A stretch of DNA of 64,000 bases from an uncultured Clostridia bacterium. GTDB lineage: Bacteria; Bacillota; Clostridia; Christensenellales; Pumilibacteraceae. The position numbers were made by a program, and so were the translations under genes. The notes beneath the pieces are model-generated. The model was not told the origin of the DNA and searched no databases. It saw only the letters and a program-made list of their open reading frames with translations. Below are positions 3,982 through 40,802 of this stretch, piece by piece (within the stretch, counting starts at the first letter, position 1; every line of letters starts with the position of its first letter). Where the stretch lies: positions 1 through 64,000 of the forward strand of contig CAOJOK010000004.1 in assembly GCA_948440265.1 (NCBI GenBank), written 5' to 3'.

Positions 3982-4028
3982 TCAAGCCTCCGTGAACGCA
4001 TACGGCAAGCGTATGCCCATACCCGTTT

Positions 4029-4058
4029 ATTGTAACGTATTTACCCCGTTCTTGTCAA
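4029..4058 (-). promoter_or_regulatory. Promoter of the Na/Pi cotransporter-ferritin unit
   Basis: Minus strand TTGACA (4053-4058) and TACAAT (4029-4034), 18-bp spacer. Confidence 0.75.
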
Positions 4059-4103
4059 ATATTTCGACAGCGACAATAAAACTTAAAATTCGACACCGCC
4101 CGA

Positions 4104-28773: not shown

Positions 28774-29100
28774 ATGGACGAAGCCGCAATCGAAAGTATC
28801 AGGGCACAGCTCCCTCAAGACGACAGTCTGCAAGATTTGGCCGAATTATTCAAGATGTTCGGAGACGGCACGAGAGCGAGAATTTTGAGCTGTCTGCAAA
28901 TCCGCGATTTGTACGTCACCGAGCTTGCCGATATTTTGGATATGAGCGTTTCCGCCGTTTCCCACCAACTGCGGGTCTTGCGCGGAGCAAAGCTCGTCAA
29001 GGGCACAAAGGAAGGCAAAGAAGTCAAGTACTCTCTCGACGACGACCACGTCACGAAAATTATGGAATACGGCTTGACGCACGTAAACGAAAAACACTGA
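28774..29100 (+). CDS. ArsR/SmtB-family metal-sensing repressor
   Basis: 108 residues. Winged-helix repressor released from DNA by metal. The recognition region is VTELADILDMSVSAVSHQLRVLR. The alpha-3 cysteine box (ELCVCDL) of CadC/ArsR types is absent. The C-terminal helix DDDHVTKIMEYGLTHVNEKH has Asp, His, His and Glu at the spacings of the SmtB/CzrA alpha-5 zinc site, so a zinc (or cobalt) sensor is likely. Start: GGAGG about 6-7 nt before the ATG. An operator dyad lies at 28731-28756. It sits upstream of an HMA chaperone and a P1B ATPase, its probable targets. Confidence 0.9.
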   Translation: MDEAAIESIRAQLPQDDSLQDLAELFKMFGDGTRARILSCLQIRDLYVTELADILDMSVSAVSHQLRVLRGAKLVKGTKEGKEVKYSLDDDHVTKIMEYGLTHVNEKH

Positions 29101-29108
29101 CTTAAATT

Positions 29109-29130
29109 ACAGGGCGATTCCCTGTTTTTT
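29109..29130 (+). terminator. Terminator between arsR-type and HMA genes
   Basis: Stem ACAGGG (29109-29114) / CCCTGT (29120-29125), 5-nt loop, T run 29125-29130. It implies a partial stop after the repressor gene. A second TTGAA (29143-29147) / TTCAA (29170-29174) pair downstream may be another operator for the metal-efflux genes. Confidence 0.7.
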
Positions 29131-29230
29131 AAAGGGTAACATTTGAACGGTTGATTAAATATATAAGTATTCAACGATTGTCGAAAAATCTTCGGCAAAT
29201 GAAAATATAAAAAACAAGGAGACTGTTATT

Positions 29231-29449
29231 ATGAAAAAGGTATACCGACTCGAGGATTTGGACTGCGCGAACTGCGCGGCGAAGATGGAGCGCGCCGTGG
29301 CGAAAATCGACGGCGTGGACAGCGTGGCTATAAGTTTTATGGGACAGAGGCTGTCTATCGACGCGGACGAAGCGCGGTTTGACGACATAATAAAGGAAGT
29401 CGTCAAAGTTTGCAGAAAAGTCGAACCCGACTGCAAAATCATTTTATAG
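29231..29449 (+). CDS. Stand-alone heavy-metal-associated (HMA) domain protein
   Basis: 72 residues, one HMA ferredoxin-like domain: LEDLDCANCAAKMERAV with the CxxC metal pair, a core similar to the N-terminal domain of ZntA/CadA ATPases. The adjacent ATPase lacks this domain, so the small protein likely serves as its detached metal-binding domain or a zinc/cadmium chaperone. Start: AAGGAG about 9 nt before the ATG. It is followed by cadA after 23 bp. Confidence 0.88.
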   Translation: MKKVYRLEDLDCANCAAKMERAVAKIDGVDSVAISFMGQRLSIDADEARFDDIIKEVVKVCRKVEPDCKIIL

Positions 29450-29472
29450 TACATAACGGCGAGCGGACTGCA

Positions 29473-31419
29473 ATGAAAAAATTTCGATTGAGTAAAAGAG
29501 AAAAAAATAATTTAATCCGAATAATCGTCGCGCTTTGCGCTTTCGGCGTCATCTTTATTCTGGATAAAGTCCTTGTACTGGGCGATTTAATCGGCGGCAC
29601 ATTGGGGTGGCTTCTTCCCTTCTTTCTGTATCTTGCCGTATATCTCGTAATCGGGTATGACGTTTTGTGGCGCGCAATACGCAACATAGCGCACGGACAG
29701 ATTTTCGACGAGAACTTTTTGATGTGCGTCGCAACGCTCGGAGCTTTCGCGCTTGCCATTTACAGGGGCGTTACGGGGCAGGAAATCGAAGGATTCGACG
29801 AGGCCTGCGCCGTACTGCTGTTTTACCAAGTCGGAGAGTTTTTCCAAAGATATGCGACGGGCAAATCGAGAAAGTCTATTTCCGCGCTTATGGACATACG
29901 CCCCGACTATGCCAACGTAAAGCGCGAAAACACGACCGAGAAAGTCGACCCGTCCGAAGTGGAAATCGGCGACATAATAGTCGTGAATCCCGGCGAAAAG
30001 GTGCCGCTTGACGGCATTGTGATAAGCGGCGCAAGCGCGCTCGACACGAAAGCGCTCACGGGCGAATCTCTGCCGCGCGACATTTCGACTGACAGCGAAG
30101 TCATAAGCGGCTGCGTCAATCTTTCTTCCCAGATAGAAGTCAGAGTGACGAAAAAGTTTTACGACTCCACCGTTTCCAAAATTCTGGAGCTTGTGGAAAA
30201 CGCTTCCGAGCAGAAATCGAAAGCCGAAAACTTTATCACGAAATTTGCCAAATATTACACCCCTGCCGTGGTCATAATCGCCGTACTGCTTGCCGTCATA
30301 CCCGGCATTGTCACGTCGGACTGGTCGACTTGGGTATACCGCGCTTTGAGCTTTTTGGTCGTATCCTGCCCCTGCGCACTAGTTATATCCATACCGCTTT
30401 CCTTCTTTGCCGGTATCGGCGCGGCGTCGAAGTACGGCATACTCGTCAAAGGTTCCAACTATCTCGAAAAGTTTAATCGCGCCGATATATTCGTCTTCGA
30501 CAAAACGGGAACTTTGACAAAGGGCAACTTTGCCGTGACGAAAGTTTTCCCCGAAGATAAGAGAGAAGAAATTCTGTATCTTGCCGCCATTGCCGAAAAG
30601 GACTCCAACCACCCTATCGCAAGGTCAATCGTCGAATGTTACGGAAAAGAGACGGAAGGCGGCTTTACGCTTACGAACGTCGCAGGCTCGGGAATTATTG
30701 CCGCAAACGCAAACACAGCCATTTACTGCGGAAACGAAAAGCTGATGAAAGGCAACGGCATCGAGTTTATCAAAGCGGACGGTCTCGGCACGGTGGTATA
30801 TGTCGCCAAAGACAAAGAGTTTATCGGCTGGCTCTTAATCTCTGACGAAATCAAGCCCGAAACCAAAGACGTAATCGGAGAGCTGAACGATATGGGCTGT
30901 CAAACCGTTATGCTGACAGGCGACAACGAGCAAATCGCAAGCTCCGTCGCAGGCAGTATCGGTCTTACGGGTTATAAAGCTTCTCTCCTGCCGCAGGACA
31001 AAGTGGCGGAAGTGGAGAATATGATGTCGCAGAAAAAGCAGAAAGACGTGCTTTGTTTTGCAGGCGACGGCATTAACGACGCTCCCGTGCTTATGCGCTC
31101 CGACATCGGTATCGCTATGGGCGGCGTGGGCAGCGACGCGGCAATCGAAGCCAGCGATATCGTGCTTATGAAAGACGATTTGCGCGGAATACCGCTTGCA
31201 AAGCGCATTGCGAAAAAGACGATGGGAATCGTTATGCAGAACATTATATTCTCGCTTGCGGTGAAAGCGGCAATACTGATTCTCTCCGCATTCGGCATTG
31301 CCAATATGTGGATTGCGGTGTTCGGCGACGTCGGCGTTGCAGTGCTTGCGATACTCAACGCAATAAGAGTCAACTCAAGCTATGAGAAGAAGAAAAAGCG
31401 CAAAACGGATAAGGCATAA
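29473..31419 (+). CDS. cadA: Zn2+/Cd2+/Pb2+-exporting P1B-type ATPase
   Basis: 648 residues. Pumps divalent soft metals out of the cell at ATP cost. Seen: actuator TGES, the CPC metal motif in SCPCALVISIP, phosphorylation site DKTGTLTKG, the SNHPIARSI motif of the nucleotide domain, and GDGINDAPVL. A Lys in FSLAVKAAILIL and the DxG in FGDVGVAVL fit the P1B-2 (zinc/cadmium/lead) class. No N-terminal HMA domain is present; a separate HMA protein precedes it. Start: ATG at 29473; GAGCGGA upstream is weak, and the earlier open frame lies inside the HMA gene. Regulated, presumably, by the ArsR-type sensor. Terminator follows. Confidence 0.93.
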   Translation: MKKFRLSKREKNNLIRIIVALCAFGVIFILDKVLVLGDLIGGTLGWLLPFFLYLAVYLVIGYDVLWRAIRNIAHGQIFDENFLMCVATLGAFALAIYRGVTGQEIEGFDEACAVLLFYQVGEFFQRYATGKSRKSISALMDIRPDYANVKRENTTEKVDPSEVEIGDIIVVNPGEKVPLDGIVISGASALDTKALTGESLPRDISTDSEVISGCVNLSSQIEVRVTKKFYDSTVSKILELVENASEQKSKAENFITKFAKYYTPAVVIIAVLLAVIPGIVTSDWSTWVYRALSFLVVSCPCALVISIPLSFFAGIGAASKYGILVKGSNYLEKFNRADIFVFDKTGTLTKGNFAVTKVFPEDKREEILYLAAIAEKDSNHPIARSIVECYGKETEGGFTLTNVAGSGIIAANANTAIYCGNEKLMKGNGIEFIKADGLGTVVYVAKDKEFIGWLLISDEIKPETKDVIGELNDMGCQTVMLTGDNEQIASSVAGSIGLTGYKASLLPQDKVAEVENMMSQKKQKDVLCFAGDGINDAPVLMRSDIGIAMGGVGSDAAIEASDIVLMKDDLRGIPLAKRIAKKTMGIVMQNIIFSLAVKAAILILSAFGIANMWIAVFGDVGVAVLAILNAIRVNSSYEKKKKRKTDKA

Positions 31420-32174: not shown

Positions 32175-32798
32175 TCAGAGAGTTTTCAATATTTCGATAA
32201 GGTTTTTTTCATTCAGCTTTTCTCCCGAAAAGTCGGCGATTATCTTTCCTTCGTCCAAAATGACGGCTCTGTCCGCCACGGCGCAGGCTTCATACGGGCT
32301 GTGCGTCACAAACAGCACGTCGCCGCCCCTGTCCCTTTGCAGTCTCCCGAAAAGGTCTGTCATTCTCGTTTTCAGTCCTATATCCAAGCCGCGGAACGGC
32401 TCGTCCATCAAGAGCGTGCCGCCGCCGCGAACGAAAGCTCTCGCCAAAGAAACTCTGTCCGCCATACCGCCCGACAGCTCTTTCGGATAAAGATTCCCGT
32501 CCACGCCCACTTCTGCGAGCATACTCTCCGCCTGCTCTTTTCCCGCGCCGACGAGCAGCAGATTTTCCAGCACGGTCAGATTTTTGATAAGTCTCGGCTG
32601 CTGAAAAATATAGGAAACTTCGCCCGTAATTTTCACTTCGCCTTCGTAATCGACAAGACCTGCCGCGATGTTCAGCAGTGTGGTCTTACCGCAGCCGCTT
32701 CGTCCCAAAACCGCCGTAATGCCCTCGAAACGGGCGGAAAAGCCGTCGTAGACCGTTTTATCGCCGAAGCTTTTCTTCACGTCTTTAAACTCAATCAT
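32175..32798 (-). CDS. ABC importer ATP-binding subunit (SsuB/TauB-like)
   Basis: 207 residues, short for the family (usually ~240-260). Walker A GRSGCGKTT, signature ELSGG (~residue 112), Walker B TLLMDEPFRG and switch VTHSPYEA are all present, so it should hydrolyse ATP. The nitrate/sulfonate/taurine (SsuB/TauB) type is inferred from partners. Start: ATG at 32798 with GGAGGT about 5 nt upstream; it overlaps the permease stop as ATGA. Last gene of the operon TM1266 regulator - binding protein - permease - ATPase. Confidence 0.9.
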   Translation of the reverse strand: MIEFKDVKKSFGDKTVYDGFSARFEGITAVLGRSGCGKTTLLNIAAGLVDYEGEVKITGEVSYIFQQPRLIKNLTVLENLLLVGAGKEQAESMLAEVGVDGNLYPKELSGGMADRVSLARAFVRGGGTLLMDEPFRGLDIGLKTRMTDLFGRLQRDRGGDVLFVTHSPYEACAVADRAVILDEGKIIADFSGEKLNEKNLIEILKTL

Positions 32799-33571
32799 TG
32801 CCACCTCCGTGCAGGCAGAGCCGCCGCCCGAACCGCAACTTCCACGATAAAACAGACGGTCACGGCAAGCAGAGTTACGGCAAACAGCCGCGCCGTATCT
32901 ATATATATATTGGCAAGATTGAGCGTGCCGCCGAGGCTGTCCGCCGTCTGCGCAAGCGCTTCGCCGGCTATGACGAGCTTGACTCCGAACGAAAGATTGC
33001 CTGCCGAAAAGTCGGCTATCTGCGGCAGAGTCTGCGGCAGTACGAACTTTGTCAGCACCTTTTTTTTCGGCACTTTATACACCTTGCACATTTCGAAAAT
33101 GCCGTCGTCGAGCGAAGACAGCATTGCCGTCGTCTGCGAATATATAATCGGCATAAGCACCGTGAACGCGACTATGACGGGCGCGAAAATCGACCGAAAC
33201 CACAGCGTCAGCAGAAATATTACCGCCATAGTCGGCACCGAGCGGAGAAAAGTCATCAGCGGCGCGAGCGCCTTTTGCAGCAGTTTTAAGCGGCTTGCGG
33301 CAATGCCGAGCGCGCCGCCGACAACAAATGCCGCCGCGAACGCGCCGAGCGAGCGCAGTAAGGTGAACGCCAGCGACTTATAAAAGTCCGCGCTTTTCAG
33401 CAGTGCGCCCACGGCAAATACTATCTCGCTTATTTTGGGCATAACCAAGCTTTCGCCCACGACAGCCGCGGCGATTGCGTATACGGCAATCATTACCAAA
33501 ACCGTAACAAGCGGAAACAGCAAGTTTATAACTGCGCTTTTGACGAGTTTTTTGTCCGATTTATTTTTCAC
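32795..33571 (-). CDS. ABC importer permease (SsuC/TauC-like)
   Basis: 258 residues, about six membrane segments, with the BPD_transp_1 coupling motif as GEALAQTADSLGGTLNLA (EAA loop variant) near residue 210. It forms the membrane channel of the importer. Start: GTG at 33571 overlapping the binding-protein stop as GTGA, with no separate strong ribosome site, so translation is coupled. Substrate class is inferred from the SsuA/NMT1-like binding protein. Confidence 0.9.
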   Translation of the reverse strand: MKNKSDKKLVKSAVINLLFPLVTVLVMIAVYAIAAAVVGESLVMPKISEIVFAVGALLKSADFYKSLAFTLLRSLGAFAAAFVVGGALGIAASRLKLLQKALAPLMTFLRSVPTMAVIFLLTLWFRSIFAPVIVAFTVLMPIIYSQTTAMLSSLDDGIFEMCKVYKVPKKKVLTKFVLPQTLPQIADFSAGNLSFGVKLVIAGEALAQTADSLGGTLNLANIYIDTARLFAVTLLAVTVCFIVEVAVRAAALPARRWQ

Positions 33572-34614
33572 TTTGCTTCTTCGTGTATCTTATCGTAAAC
33601 CATAGAAGCGGCGGGCTCGGCAAGCAGTCCGAAGTCTATTTGACCGAGTTTCAGCGCCTGTATGATTGCGCCGCCGTCCGCATAATAGCGCAGAGCCACT
33701 TTTCCGTCGATTGCGGTATCGCTTCTTTCATAAGAAATTTCCTTGCGCTTCAAAATATATCTGAACACCAAGTCGGGGACCTGCCCTTCCCCTATGACGC
33801 CGACCGTCTTTCCGACAAAGGTCTGCGCGCCGTCCATATCGCCGCCGACGATATAGAGATTGCCGTGCGTCAATGTTGCAACGAGTTTATATCTGCCGTT
33901 CTTATTATAAAGTTTTGCCGCAAGGTTGGACGGTACGACGGCAATATCCGCTTCGCCCGTGGTGACCTTTTGCGCTATCTGATTGGACGGTACGACGGTG
34001 TATTTTACGTCGACGCCGTCAATCTTTTCCGAACTTGCCATAAGCGGCGAGAGCGCGAGAGCAGTCGCTCCGTCCGGCATAAAGACCTTGACGCTTACGG
34101 GTATTTCGCCGCCGTCGGCAGGCTGTGCGTAAAAATCTTCGTCCGGCAGCTTTCCGCCTATCAAGTCCTGCGACAGTTCTTTTTCCATATCGATAAACAA
34201 ATTCAAGTATGCTTCCGCCGCCGCCTTTGCTTCCATAGCCGGCACCGTCTTTATATGACATCTCTGCACGATTTCTTTCGTAACCGAAGTCACGGTGGAA
34301 GTCGTGCCCGACTGCATATTGTTCTTTATCGCTTCGACCGCCTGCGCCGTATTATTCTCCGCCCAGCCGTCTGCTTCTTTAAGCGCCGCCGCAAAGCTCT
34401 TGACGAATCCGCCCGACGTCTGCAGAAGTTCGCTTTTTGCCACAAGGCACGCCTGCGGATATTCCGCCGTACCCGTAACTTCCCGCCACAGCGTCTGCAC
34501 GTCCATTCTGTCGGTGACCAACGTGGGCGTGTAACAATCGCACGCGGCAAACGGCAGAATCGCCGTAAGCGCAAGGCACATAACTATCGTCGCTATCTTT
34601 CCCGTTCTTTTCAT
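33568..34614 (-). CDS. ABC substrate-binding lipoprotein, SsuA/NMT1-like, circularly permuted order
   Basis: 348 residues: signal peptide with lipobox-like FAAC (Cys25), then the binding protein. The order of parts is unusual. In SsuA/NMT1 proteins the chain opens with a 'V.IG..ps..pl..A' strand and ends with a 'YP..lv....f....p..v..fl.a' region. Here that ending (EYPQACLVAKSELL..., about residues 45-145) comes first. The usual opening (VSVKVFMPDGATALALSPL) starts only at residue 174, followed by TTGEADIAVVPSN and finally LKLGQIDFGLLAEPAASM at the C-terminus. This reads as a circular permutation. Start: AAGGAG about 8 nt before the ATG at 34614. Overlaps the permease gene as GTGA. The ligand is unknown. 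Confidence 0.85.
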   Translation of the reverse strand: MKRTGKIATIVMCLALTAILPFAACDCYTPTLVTDRMDVQTLWREVTGTAEYPQACLVAKSELLQTSGGFVKSFAAALKEADGWAENNTAQAVEAIKNNMQSGTTSTVTSVTKEIVQRCHIKTVPAMEAKAAAEAYLNLFIDMEKELSQDLIGGKLPDEDFYAQPADGGEIPVSVKVFMPDGATALALSPLMASSEKIDGVDVKYTVVPSNQIAQKVTTGEADIAVVPSNLAAKLYNKNGRYKLVATLTHGNLYIVGGDMDGAQTFVGKTVGVIGEGQVPDLVFRYILKRKEISYERSDTAIDGKVALRYYADGGAIIQALKLGQIDFGLLAEPAASMVYDKIHEEAK

Positions 34615-34627
34615 AAAATCAATCTCC

Positions 34628-34882
34628 TTATTTATCTGTTCTGGCAAACAGCGTTTTTGCGGATACTCCGTCGAGATTTCCGAGTTTGCCCGTCAGTGCA
34701 TTTATCCTGTCCGCAGGCGCGTCCATTACCACGGAAATCACATTTATTCCGCGCGCGGCAAGCGGCAGTCCCATTCTGCCGATTATGTACTCGCCGAACT
34801 CCGACAGCAGAGAGTTGAGCGTTTCCACCGCGGCTTTGTTCTCCACTATTATTCCGACTTGCGCCAATCTGTTTTCCGACAT
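34628..34882 (-). CDS. TM1266-family (iron-only hydrogenase system) putative regulator
   Basis: 84 residues, an ACT/NikR-C-like ferredoxin-fold domain: RLAQVGIIVENKAAVETLN, EYIIGRMGLPLAARGINVISVV, then APADRINALTGKLG. This matches the TM1266 family, named for its frequent link to [FeFe]-hydrogenase genes; its ligand and targets are not established. Start: ATG at 34882 with AAGGAGC about 8 nt upstream. First gene of the importer operon (gap 13 bp to the binding protein), behind a leader with a terminator. No hydrogenase gene is in this window, so here it may serve the transporter instead. Confidence 0.85.
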   Translation of the reverse strand: MSENRLAQVGIIVENKAAVETLNSLLSEFGEYIIGRMGLPLAARGINVISVVMDAPADRINALTGKLGNLDGVSAKTLFARTDK

Positions 34883-35050
34883 AATTATTAGCTCCTTTTC
34901 AAAAATAAAACCCCTTTTCCATACGAAAAGGGGGAATAAAATTAAGCCGCGTCCGACACGGAAGTACAACCGCGCAAAATGCCTTGCGGACGCAATCTGC
35001 TTTTTAAATTAACCCGCCTTGACAATCAGGTCACCCTTTTCGTTCAGGAC
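34883..35050 (-). promoter_or_regulatory. Structured 5' leader with terminator/antiterminator (candidate riboswitch or attenuator)
   Basis: About 165 nt between the predicted start (~35050) and the TM1266 start codon. Near the 3' end is an intrinsic terminator: arms 34925-34933 and 34911-34919, 5-nt loop, then a U-rich tract (34901-34910). The leader segment complementary to 35034-35043 pairs perfectly over 10 nt with the terminator's first arm (34923-34932), a classic antiterminator. Between them is another stem, GCGTCCG / CGGACGC, extended by AAGC / GCUU. I cannot match it to a known riboswitch class. Confidence 0.7.
34901..34934 (-). terminator. Leader terminator upstream of the importer operon
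   Basis: Perfect 9-bp stem CCCCTTTTC / GAAAAGGGG, loop 34920-34924, followed on the minus strand by nine T in ten bases. It lies before, not after, a gene, only ~20 nt ahead of the TM1266 start, so it must act as an attenuator. Confidence 0.8.
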
Positions 35051-35056
35051 ATATAC

Positions 35057-35086
35057 AGTATACACCCCGACGACGGTCTTTGTCAA
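35057..35086 (-). promoter_or_regulatory. Promoter of the TM1266/importer operon
   Basis: Minus strand TTGACA (35081-35086) and TATACT (35057-35062), 18-bp spacer. It starts right after the stop of the gene at 35090. Confidence 0.8.
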
Positions 35087-35089
35087 GAA

Positions 35090-35638
35090 TTATACGGGAG
35101 CGAAATCGCAGAGTCTGCCGCGATAAATAATCTCGCCTTTTTTCATATTCAGAAACTCTACGGGACGGACCACTTCGCCGAACTCGTCTTTTTCCAAAAT
35201 GTCGAACTTGTCCAAGAGTTCTTTGATAAACTCCGAACAATAATAGCAGTTTGCCTTGCGGCGGTGAATACCCAATTTGGCAAGAAACAGTCCGAGATAG
35301 TTATAATGATATTTCTTCCTGTCCACATACATATTTTTTATGTACTCGTTTATCTCGGCATATTTATCCTTGCTCACAGTCAGACGGATAACCACGACTT
35401 CGCTGTTTTTAAACCGCTTCATAGAACCGAAATGCACGGACTCTTTCACAAATCCGCCGATAAAGGGGTTGCTGGGGAAAATTCTGCCGAAAGAATACAT
35501 CTCGTTCAAGTCGTCTTCCAGACTTATGGACGAATGGGCATACTTATCTCCCGTAACCTTTCTTATTATCTTGGAAACAATAGAATCGGTTGCGCTGACA
35601 ACTATGTAAATATGTTTTTTCTTTTCTTTCTTTTCCAC
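35090..35638 (-). CDS. Permuted papain-fold (YiiX/NlpC-P60-like) hydrolase
   Basis: 182 residues, no signal peptide. The likely catalytic His35 (KYAHSSISL) comes before the likely Cys134 (CYYCSEFIKEL), the order typical of permuted papain-like YiiX/YebB proteins. These act on amide or ester bonds; substrate unknown. The frame stays open to an ATG at 35749, but a consensus promoter (35705-35734) lies inside that extension. The GTG at 35638 with AAGGATAGG upstream is therefore the better start. Very Lys-rich N-terminus (EKKEKKKH). Confidence 0.75.
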   Translation of the reverse strand: MEKKEKKKHIYIVVSATDSIVSKIIRKVTGDKYAHSSISLEDDLNEMYSFGRIFPSNPFIGGFVKESVHFGSMKRFKNSEVVVIRLTVSKDKYAEINEYIKNMYVDRKKYHYNYLGLFLAKLGIHRRKANCYYCSEFIKELLDKFDILEKDEFGEVVRPVEFLNMKKGEIIYRGRLCDFAPV

Positions 35639-35704
35639 TTTCCTATCCTTAACGCCACCGAAATCGGGTCGCGACTCATATAAGAATTTAACCTCGTATT
35701 GTTT

Positions 35705-35734
35705 ATTATAAACGGCAAACCGCTCGTTTGTCAA
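35705..35734 (-). promoter_or_regulatory. Promoter of the permuted papain-like gene
   Basis: Minus strand TTGACA (35729-35734) and TATAAT (35705-35710), 18-bp spacer. Start near 35698, about 60 nt before the GTG at 35638. Confidence 0.8.
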
Positions 35735-35844
35735 ATAACTTATGGGCATATAACGGAAAAACAGACAAAAATTTCGTAAAAACGTATATTTTCCCCTCGT
35801 TTTCGCCTAATACCATTTATGCTTCGGCGGTTTGAATTATGCTC

Positions 35845-39452: not shown

Positions 39453-40802
39453 TTATTCTTCCACGAACTGTCCCTGTTTGTCCAGATTCTCTTTTATGCG
39501 AAGCAGCAGTCTGTTTGTGTACTCCGTCTTTTGTTTACGCTTTGCTTCATCCTTCCACTTCTTATACTGTGCGGCGATAAACGACATTGACGAGCTGTCG
39601 TTTTTGAGAAGGCACTGTTCGCTGAAAGCGATGAGATATTCCTGCTGCAACTTATCCGACATATATACGTTTGTGGGGAACTCCCGTTTGAAATTGTCCC
39701 AAAGTATGAAGCGGTTTTCCACCGAATTTTCCAGATTTTTTGCATACTCTTCGTTGTTTCCGATAACGTCTTTATAAAGGTGAGCAAGGTCGTTATAAAT
39801 ATACGACCGCAGAAGATATATCAGACAGTCGTTGCTGTCTTTGAATCTTTCTTCAAGCTTATCTATAAGCTTTATGGTGTCTTTGAAATATTTTAGAGCA
39901 TTGTTTTTGCAGTCGTCTTTTCTCTGCTCCGTCAAGCCCGCATCTTTTAAATACAGCAGATTTATCAGCCCCAAAATATCATTGCAGAGAATATCGATAA
40001 TATCGTCCAATACGCTGGGCTGTTTGCCGCCGCCGTTTGAGAAACTGACGGTTTCCTTTCTTCTATTCAAAATACGCTGTATTCTCTGCTCTGCCATAAA
40101 CTCGTCTGCCAACAGCGCGTTTGCCATATCGCCGCTCTTTAAGAATACGTCGACGTAAGTCTTGGCAAACGACACTATTTCACCCGTTCTGCCGCGACCC
40201 GAAATCCTGTCGAGACTGTCGCGGAATCGCTGATTGTCGTTATAATAATATGCGGCAAGACAGCCGATTACTATGTATTCTTCAAACTCCGTACTGTTAT
40301 AACAGTCCTTGTCGCTTTCCAAATCGCGGCTTATGTACTGCCAATCGTCGATTATTTTAAAGTAGTTGACGGGCAGCTCTTTATTCAGGTTGTTTTCAAA
40401 AAGCCTGTATACTTCGTCCGCCAATTCGTCATCGCTCTTTTCTCCGCCGTCATCGCTCTTTTTGCGAGTCAATTCTTCCGCCCAAACGCCTTCCAAATCG
40501 CTCGGCAAGTCGCTTTTATGCTTGTCTATCAAGAATACGTGTATGCGTTTCATTCGCTTATAGCCGACAAGGTATCCCCACTCGTACATAAGGTTGGTGC
40601 TGAAACCTATGTTCTTATAGTTTTCGACAAGCAGTATGGCTTTGTCGCAAGACTTCATCTGTTCTATTATCTGATTGCCGACAAACATCTGATTGGGGGC
40701 GCCGCCGCCCATAACGATATTGTGGCCGTTTTCTTTGAATTTGCTCTCTAATTTTTGCGCCAATGTCTCGTTGCCGCCCCATCCGATAAAAATATTCGAC
40801 AT
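39453..40802 (-). CDS. TIR-like domain protein with large helical C-terminal region
   Basis: 449 residues. Residues 1-~100 resemble a bacterial TIR-like (predicted nucleotide-binding) domain: IFIGWGGNETLAQKLESKF, a loop with GGGAP, CDKAILLVENYKN, then the conserved helix STNLMYEWGYLVG whose Glu74 sits where the catalytic Glu of NADase TIR domains is expected. Residues ~130-449 are helical and charged, without a family I recognise; a TPR-like sensor or adaptor is possible. TIR domains in bacteria often cleave NAD+ or make signalling nucleotides in antiphage defence. Start: AGGAGG about 8 nt before the ATG. It lies 28 bp after a LOG-family gene on the same strand, sharing its promoter. Confidence 0.8.
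   Translation of the reverse strand: MSNIFIGWGGNETLAQKLESKFKENGHNIVMGGGAPNQMFVGNQIIEQMKSCDKAILLVENYKNIGFSTNLMYEWGYLVGYKRMKRIHVFLIDKHKSDLPSDLEGVWAEELTRKKSDDGGEKSDDELADEVYRLFENNLNKELPVNYFKIIDDWQYISRDLESDKDCYNSTEFEEYIVIGCLAAYYYNDNQRFRDSLDRISGRGRTGEIVSFAKTYVDVFLKSGDMANALLADEFMAEQRIQRILNRRKETVSFSNGGGKQPSVLDDIIDILCNDILGLINLLYLKDAGLTEQRKDDCKNNALKYFKDTIKLIDKLEERFKDSNDCLIYLLRSYIYNDLAHLYKDVIGNNEEYAKNLENSVENRFILWDNFKREFPTNVYMSDKLQQEYLIAFSEQCLLKNDSSSMSFIAAQYKKWKDEAKRKQKTEYTNRLLLRIKENLDKQGQFVEE

Follow-up and report, generated by a model that had tools for sequence, protein, structure and literature searches.

The window analysed here, i.e., the whole stretch of 64,000 nt, carries on its minus strand an operon whose first gene encodes a TM1266-family protein and which continues with the genes of an ABC transporter. 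Between a promoter and the ATG of the TM1266 gene lies a leader, in which a 5' hairpin, a second stem and an intrinsic terminator follow one another in this order. The individual features are the following:

35081..35086, minus strand: promoter -35 element TTGACA, read from the sequence, with 18-nt spacing to the -10 element
35057..35062, minus strand: promoter -10 element TATACT, read from the sequence and kept in the genus mate
35017..35048, minus strand: conserved pseudo-symmetric hairpin (the motif), based on RNAalifold, covariation, CM hits in several orders and the MFE fold
35044..35045, minus strand: GA, 5' side of the outer internal loop, with CA at 35020-35021 as the 3' side (alignment A4)
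35026..35027, minus strand: GA, 3' side of the inner internal loop, with AA at 35038-35039 as the 5' side; near-invariant in A4
35034..35043, minus strand: antiterminator strand ACGAAAAGGG within the conserved hairpin, 10-bp complement of 34923-34932
34944..35002, minus strand: linker stem AAGC..GCGUCCG / CGGACGC..GCUU, based on the fold and on compensatory changes
34911..34933, minus strand: intrinsic terminator hairpin, read from the sequence
34901..34910, minus strand: terminator U tract TTTTATTTTT, read from the sequence
34892..34897, minus strand: Shine-Dalgarno sequence AAGGAG, read from the sequence
34628..34882, minus strand: TM1266-family gene (TIGR03959, PF21699), first gene of the operon, based on profile matches and the homologue 2NZC
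33568..34620, minus strand: NMT1/SsuA-like substrate-binding protein (SBP)
32795..33571, minus strand: ABC transporter permease
32175..32804, minus strand: ABC transporter ATPase

The promoter is of the sigma-70 type (TTGACA at 35086-35081, TATACT at 35062-35057, both from the sequence), a promoter-like pair is located at the same position in 30 of 33 homologous leaders, and transcription is expected to start near 35050, immediately 5' of the hairpin. Neither the promoter nor the fact that 35048-35017 itself forms a conserved hairpin had been noticed in the preliminary description of this DNA, whose account of the downstream elements was confirmed. The terminator (CCCCTTTTC-GTATG-GAAAAGGGG, 34933-34911, -13.8 kcal/mol) is followed by the U tract (34910-34901) and, about 20 nt further on, by the ATG (34882) of the first gene; the segment at 35043-35034 is a perfect 10-nt complement of CCCUUUUCGU at 34932-34923, a stretch formed by eight 5'-arm bases and two loop bases of the terminator; and the intermediate stem GCGTCCG/CGGACGC (34993-34987/34955-34949) with its AAGC/GCUU extension (35002-34999/34947-34944) is present, the genus mate retaining it by two compensatory changes. 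The fold of the entire leader is more stable than that of shuffled sequences (z = -2.35). Just 5' of the leader, positions 35090-35749 of the minus strand encode a conserved hypothetical protein, which is syntenic in the genus mate and has no Pfam or NCBIfam match.

In the window the motif reads CCU GA ACGA AA AGG (GUGA) CCU GA UUGU CA AGG and folds into three stacked helices of 3, 4 and 3 bp, split by two identical GA/AA internal loops into a pseudo-symmetric hairpin. Structure alignments comprised 33, 40 and 44 leaders; RNAalifold returned the same helices on the first of them, and the unconstrained single-sequence MFE fold of the window is the same hairpin, pair for pair. Double changes affect seven of the ten pairs, 92% of the cells are paired, and the covariation score is 0.457, compared with 0.170 +/- 0.016 after shuffling, with slid versions not exceeding 0.124. 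The middle helix, ACGA/UUGU in the window, is found as ACCG/CGGY, ACGG/CCGC, AUUC/GGGU, ACUA/UAGU, CCCG/CGGG or GCUC/GAGU in relatives, its first pair (columns 15-52) often being an A.C mismatch; the variable pair of the inner helix switches among G-C, C-G and A-U, and the otherwise invariant outer C-G pair is A-U in L126 and G-C in the tandem copy of L120. On the 5' side of the outer loop, the A is invariant and the G is mostly kept, being otherwise A (A4). The spacing between the two halves ranges from about 4 to 22 nt, with long insertions folding as hairpins (L015, L048). The segment 35048-35017 is a conserved covarying RNA structure. Because nested pairing accounts for the covariation and is identical to the MFE fold, a kissing-loop interpretation of the two CCTGA..AAAGG boxes was abandoned.

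In the one genus mate, conserved blocks are located 3' of the promoter. When relatives of the operon were fetched through the binding protein across the Pumilibacteraceae, the same element, of the form CTGAAYCGAAAG-n-CTGACGGYAAAG, was found before TM1266 in nearly all TM1266-transporter loci. An exact-pattern scan of one genome per species (about 85,000 species) yielded 27 loci, all of which except L054 and L060 resemble the leader; these two and the CM hits L127 and L128 look false and have no operon downstream. A pattern search with the 3' half of the motif in the whole order returned only the two copies of the genus and chance matches, the wider motif family being reachable only via the operon. 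CM searches detected the motif in 32 of 74 Pumilibacteraceae genomes (one copy each), in 40 of 396 genomes of the window's order, and in 17 of 391 genomes of other orders of the class (two of these being false). Two distant orders had it in 20 of 67 and 5 of 58 genomes. Some genomes contain two or three motifs, and L145 contains a tandem pair. At L143 (genome G592, 4028-4081), a second copy of the hairpin is located within the operon, immediately 5' of the hydG start codon, and overlaps the likely ribosome-binding site, which suggests translational besides transcriptional control for this copy.

Across several orders of Clostridia, the motif thus distributed lies nearly always directly before TM1266-transporter or [FeFe]-hydrogenase maturation genes, the identities of representative downstream genes having been checked against curated models. 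In the window's order it precedes TM1266-SBP-permease-ATPase or the SBP gene directly, elsewhere TM1266-hydG-hydF, TM1266-hydE-hydG-hydF, hydE-hydG-hydF, aspA-hydF or hydG. In vitro, the nitrogen of the dithiomethylamine ligand of the H-cluster can be provided by aspartate ammonia-lyase, whose gene is a frequent neighbour of hyd genes (PMC11736057); the motif ties aspA and an uncharacterised importer to the H-cluster regulon. In the Pumilibacteraceae the motif precedes the transporter in genomes devoid of HydG: the latter is absent from the genome of the window and from all other motif-positive genomes of the family, and scores above the cut-off in two genera only, in which TM1266 is the first gene of a hydE-hydG operon that has no convincing motif. 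The imported substrate, earlier put forward as a possible ligand, has lost ground, because the same RNA precedes hydE, hydG and aspA-hydF in the absence of a transporter and the motif is absent from 17 Pumilibacteraceae genomes that have an SBP homologue but lack TM1266.

In agreement with the earlier remark that no known aptamer was recognisable, Rfam 15 gave no family at the gathering threshold for the window, 16 loci of the family and 11 distant loci, and the best sub-threshold scores for the window mostly match the terminator. Rfam was also found to hold no regulatory RNA for [FeFe]-hydrogenase maturation, nor was one for hyd genes or TM1266 met with in the literature searched, the coverage of which was partial, so that a description elsewhere is possible. 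In PyrR-type attenuators a protein-stabilised 5' hairpin favours the terminator over the antiterminator, and the logic proposed here is the same; a PyrR-binding leader was rejected since the model reached 16 bits against a cutoff of 54, with a terminator-dominated alignment, and the genes are different. The pan motif, located upstream of biosynthesis genes and proposed as a dimeric protein-binding site, is a simple stem in leaders, often in tandem, in which conserved unpaired adenosines recur (PMC2864571). It resembles our element in these respects, but has two single bulged As and pantothenate genes (panB, panC, aspartate decarboxylase), whereas the internal loops found here are 2x2 GA/AA and H-cluster genes follow; on account of these loops, the missing pan genes and the missing Rfam hit, it was rejected. 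The guanidine-IV riboswitch and Gd4v consist of two hairpins joined by a loop-loop pseudoknot, of which the 3' one is itself the terminator, and are associated with sugE, MATE, GNAT or transaminase genes (PMC7736828, PMC9788692, PMC11611296). They too are Bacillota leader RNAs controlling a terminator, but are set apart by their published consensus, as the covariation here is that of a single hairpin with two internal loops and the terminator is separate, and by the unrelated gene context (TM1266, NMT1 ABC transporter, hydE/G/F, aspA). The NMT1 motif, a xanthine riboswitch, is named after NMT1-type transport genes (PMC7373994), one of which is also downstream here; it was rejected because the leader has no Rfam match and the same RNA also precedes hyd genes.

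A terminator-like hairpin with a U-rich tail was found in 52 of 52 leaders examined, a survey in which the wrong hairpin was probably chosen for L014, L016 and L117, and in many leaders one strand of the conserved hairpin is able to base-pair with the 5' arm of the terminator. The 10-bp duplex of the window has an energy of -16.8 kcal/mol, whereas shuffled arms average -9.2 kcal/mol (p < 1/300). Over the set, the hairpin strand pairs better with its own terminator arm than with swapped arms (p = 6e-4; mean z of -1.24 against shuffled arms), with the complementarity being individually significant (p <= 0.05) in 15 of the 52 leaders only and the species being related. The two general marks of an attenuator leader, a terminator ahead of the first gene and an alternative pairing incompatible with it, are thus present strongly in the window and statistically in the set. 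Of the riboswitch or protein-attenuator architecture proposed at the outset, the attenuator layout is well supported by the strong covariation of the 5' hairpin, by the absence of Rfam hits and by the terminator-like hairpin present in every leader examined; the specific 10-nt pairing, however, is not universal, as the genus mate and many relatives pair the other strand (AAAGGnnn) with their own terminator arm. In the full leader of the window, hairpin plus terminator amounts to -48.7 kcal/mol versus -45.7 for the antiterminator, a difference of only 3 kcal/mol, which makes the default state uncertain. When the transcript ends at 34924, the MFE structure flips from the hairpin to the antiterminator. 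Since little energy separates the two states and a transcript that has only the first terminator arm prefers the antiterminator, a factor holding the hairpin closed should favour termination.

The common denominator of the motif contexts is TM1266, not the transporter. In the Pumilibacteraceae TM1266 was found in 32 of 32 motif-positive genomes and the motif in none of 30 TM1266-negative genomes (Fisher p = 3e-11); 17 of 17 further motif-positive genomes encode TM1266 as well, in nine cases away from the motif, giving 49 of 49 motif-positive genomes tested. Much of this co-occurrence is linkage, and the unlinked cases represent only about three lineages. Six genomes (L182, L183, L186, L188, L191, L192) have an unlinked TM1266 gene at a shared spot without a motif of its own, next to a thymidylate-synthase-like gene and, in five of six each, a sigma-70-family gene and a short-chain dehydrogenase gene; they probably derive from one relocation, so that their co-occurrence is suggestive rather than independent evidence. 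In some TM1266-hydE-hydG operons (g17, g9), no convincing motif was found and TM1266 may act otherwise there. The protein is annotated as a putative regulator of the iron-only hydrogenase system and has a solved homologue (2NZC). From its length of about 80 residues and general knowledge, we take its fold to be ACT-like and devoid of a DNA-binding domain; the invariant basic residues R36 and K76 would be compatible with nucleic-acid contact, without being proof of it. At 34628-34882 of the window and in 31 other genomes of the family, TM1266 is kept beside the ABC importer and HydG is absent; as TM1266 and the motif RNA occur in HydG-lacking genomes, annotation of this protein family as hydrogenase-specific is too narrow.

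As judged from sequence comparison, the leader is probably a new, previously undescribed attenuator class bound by TM1266. Transcription would start a few nucleotides before the conserved hairpin; with the hairpin held closed, the downstream terminator would form and the operon would be off, and upon opening one strand would pair with the 5' terminator arm and allow readthrough. The factor keeping the hairpin closed would most likely be TM1266, and we regard the chances as even that the leader works in this way. The binding of TM1266 to the RNA, the off-when-bound direction and a signal sensed by TM1266 are the parts that we infer. Tentatively, and at slightly less than even chances, TM1266 may be the RNA-binding attenuation protein for the GA/AA hairpin, defining a new protein-RNA regulon of H-cluster biogenesis and an uncharacterised importer, in which it would control hydE, hydG, hydF and aspA and, in Pumilibacteraceae and relatives, the ABC importer too. 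The tandem copies, the up to three motifs per genome and the pseudo-twofold symmetry fit an oligomeric protein partner. The main rival is a small-molecule riboswitch, in which a pocket made by the two GA/AA loops would take up a metabolite or metal that H-cluster assembly and the importer have in common, the bound ligand would close the hairpin and cause termination, and TM1266 would sense or handle the same ligand. Strongly conserved loop nucleotides within freely covarying helices, the leader and terminator architecture, and the position beside transporter and cofactor-maturation genes agree with it; tandem copies occur in riboswitches too, and small-molecule aptamers of similar size exist. 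The element is, however, a single short hairpin that follows TM1266 more tightly than it follows the transporter or HydG, and aspA, hydE and an NMT1-type importer have no obvious common ligand, which leaves the riboswitch a serious though rather improbable reading. We consider it unlikely that another RNA-binding protein binds the hairpin and TM1266 is merely co-inherited: repeated-loop hairpins are typical protein sites and the motif is absent from some TM1266 operons, but no further gene was seen common to all motif contexts, and TM1266 is retained even where unlinked. A DNA operator over the transcription start, suggested by the repeated CCTGA..AAAGG box at most about 10 nt from the -10 element, is disfavoured and very improbable in view of the variable half spacing with its hairpin-forming insertions, the covarying helices and the copy inside an operon directly before hydG.

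A regulatory RNA for H-cluster maturation and the unexplained role of TM1266 both become directly testable, as the hairpin is short, is easy to synthesise and has a clear mutational logic. Elsewhere in the window, the plus strand carries at 28774-31419 what appear by eye to be an ArsR-like regulator gene and, following it, a P-type metal ATPase gene, and the protein encoded at 39453-40802 of the minus strand has an N-terminus that looks TIR- or nucleotide-binding-like by eye, possibly marking a defence or signalling gene.
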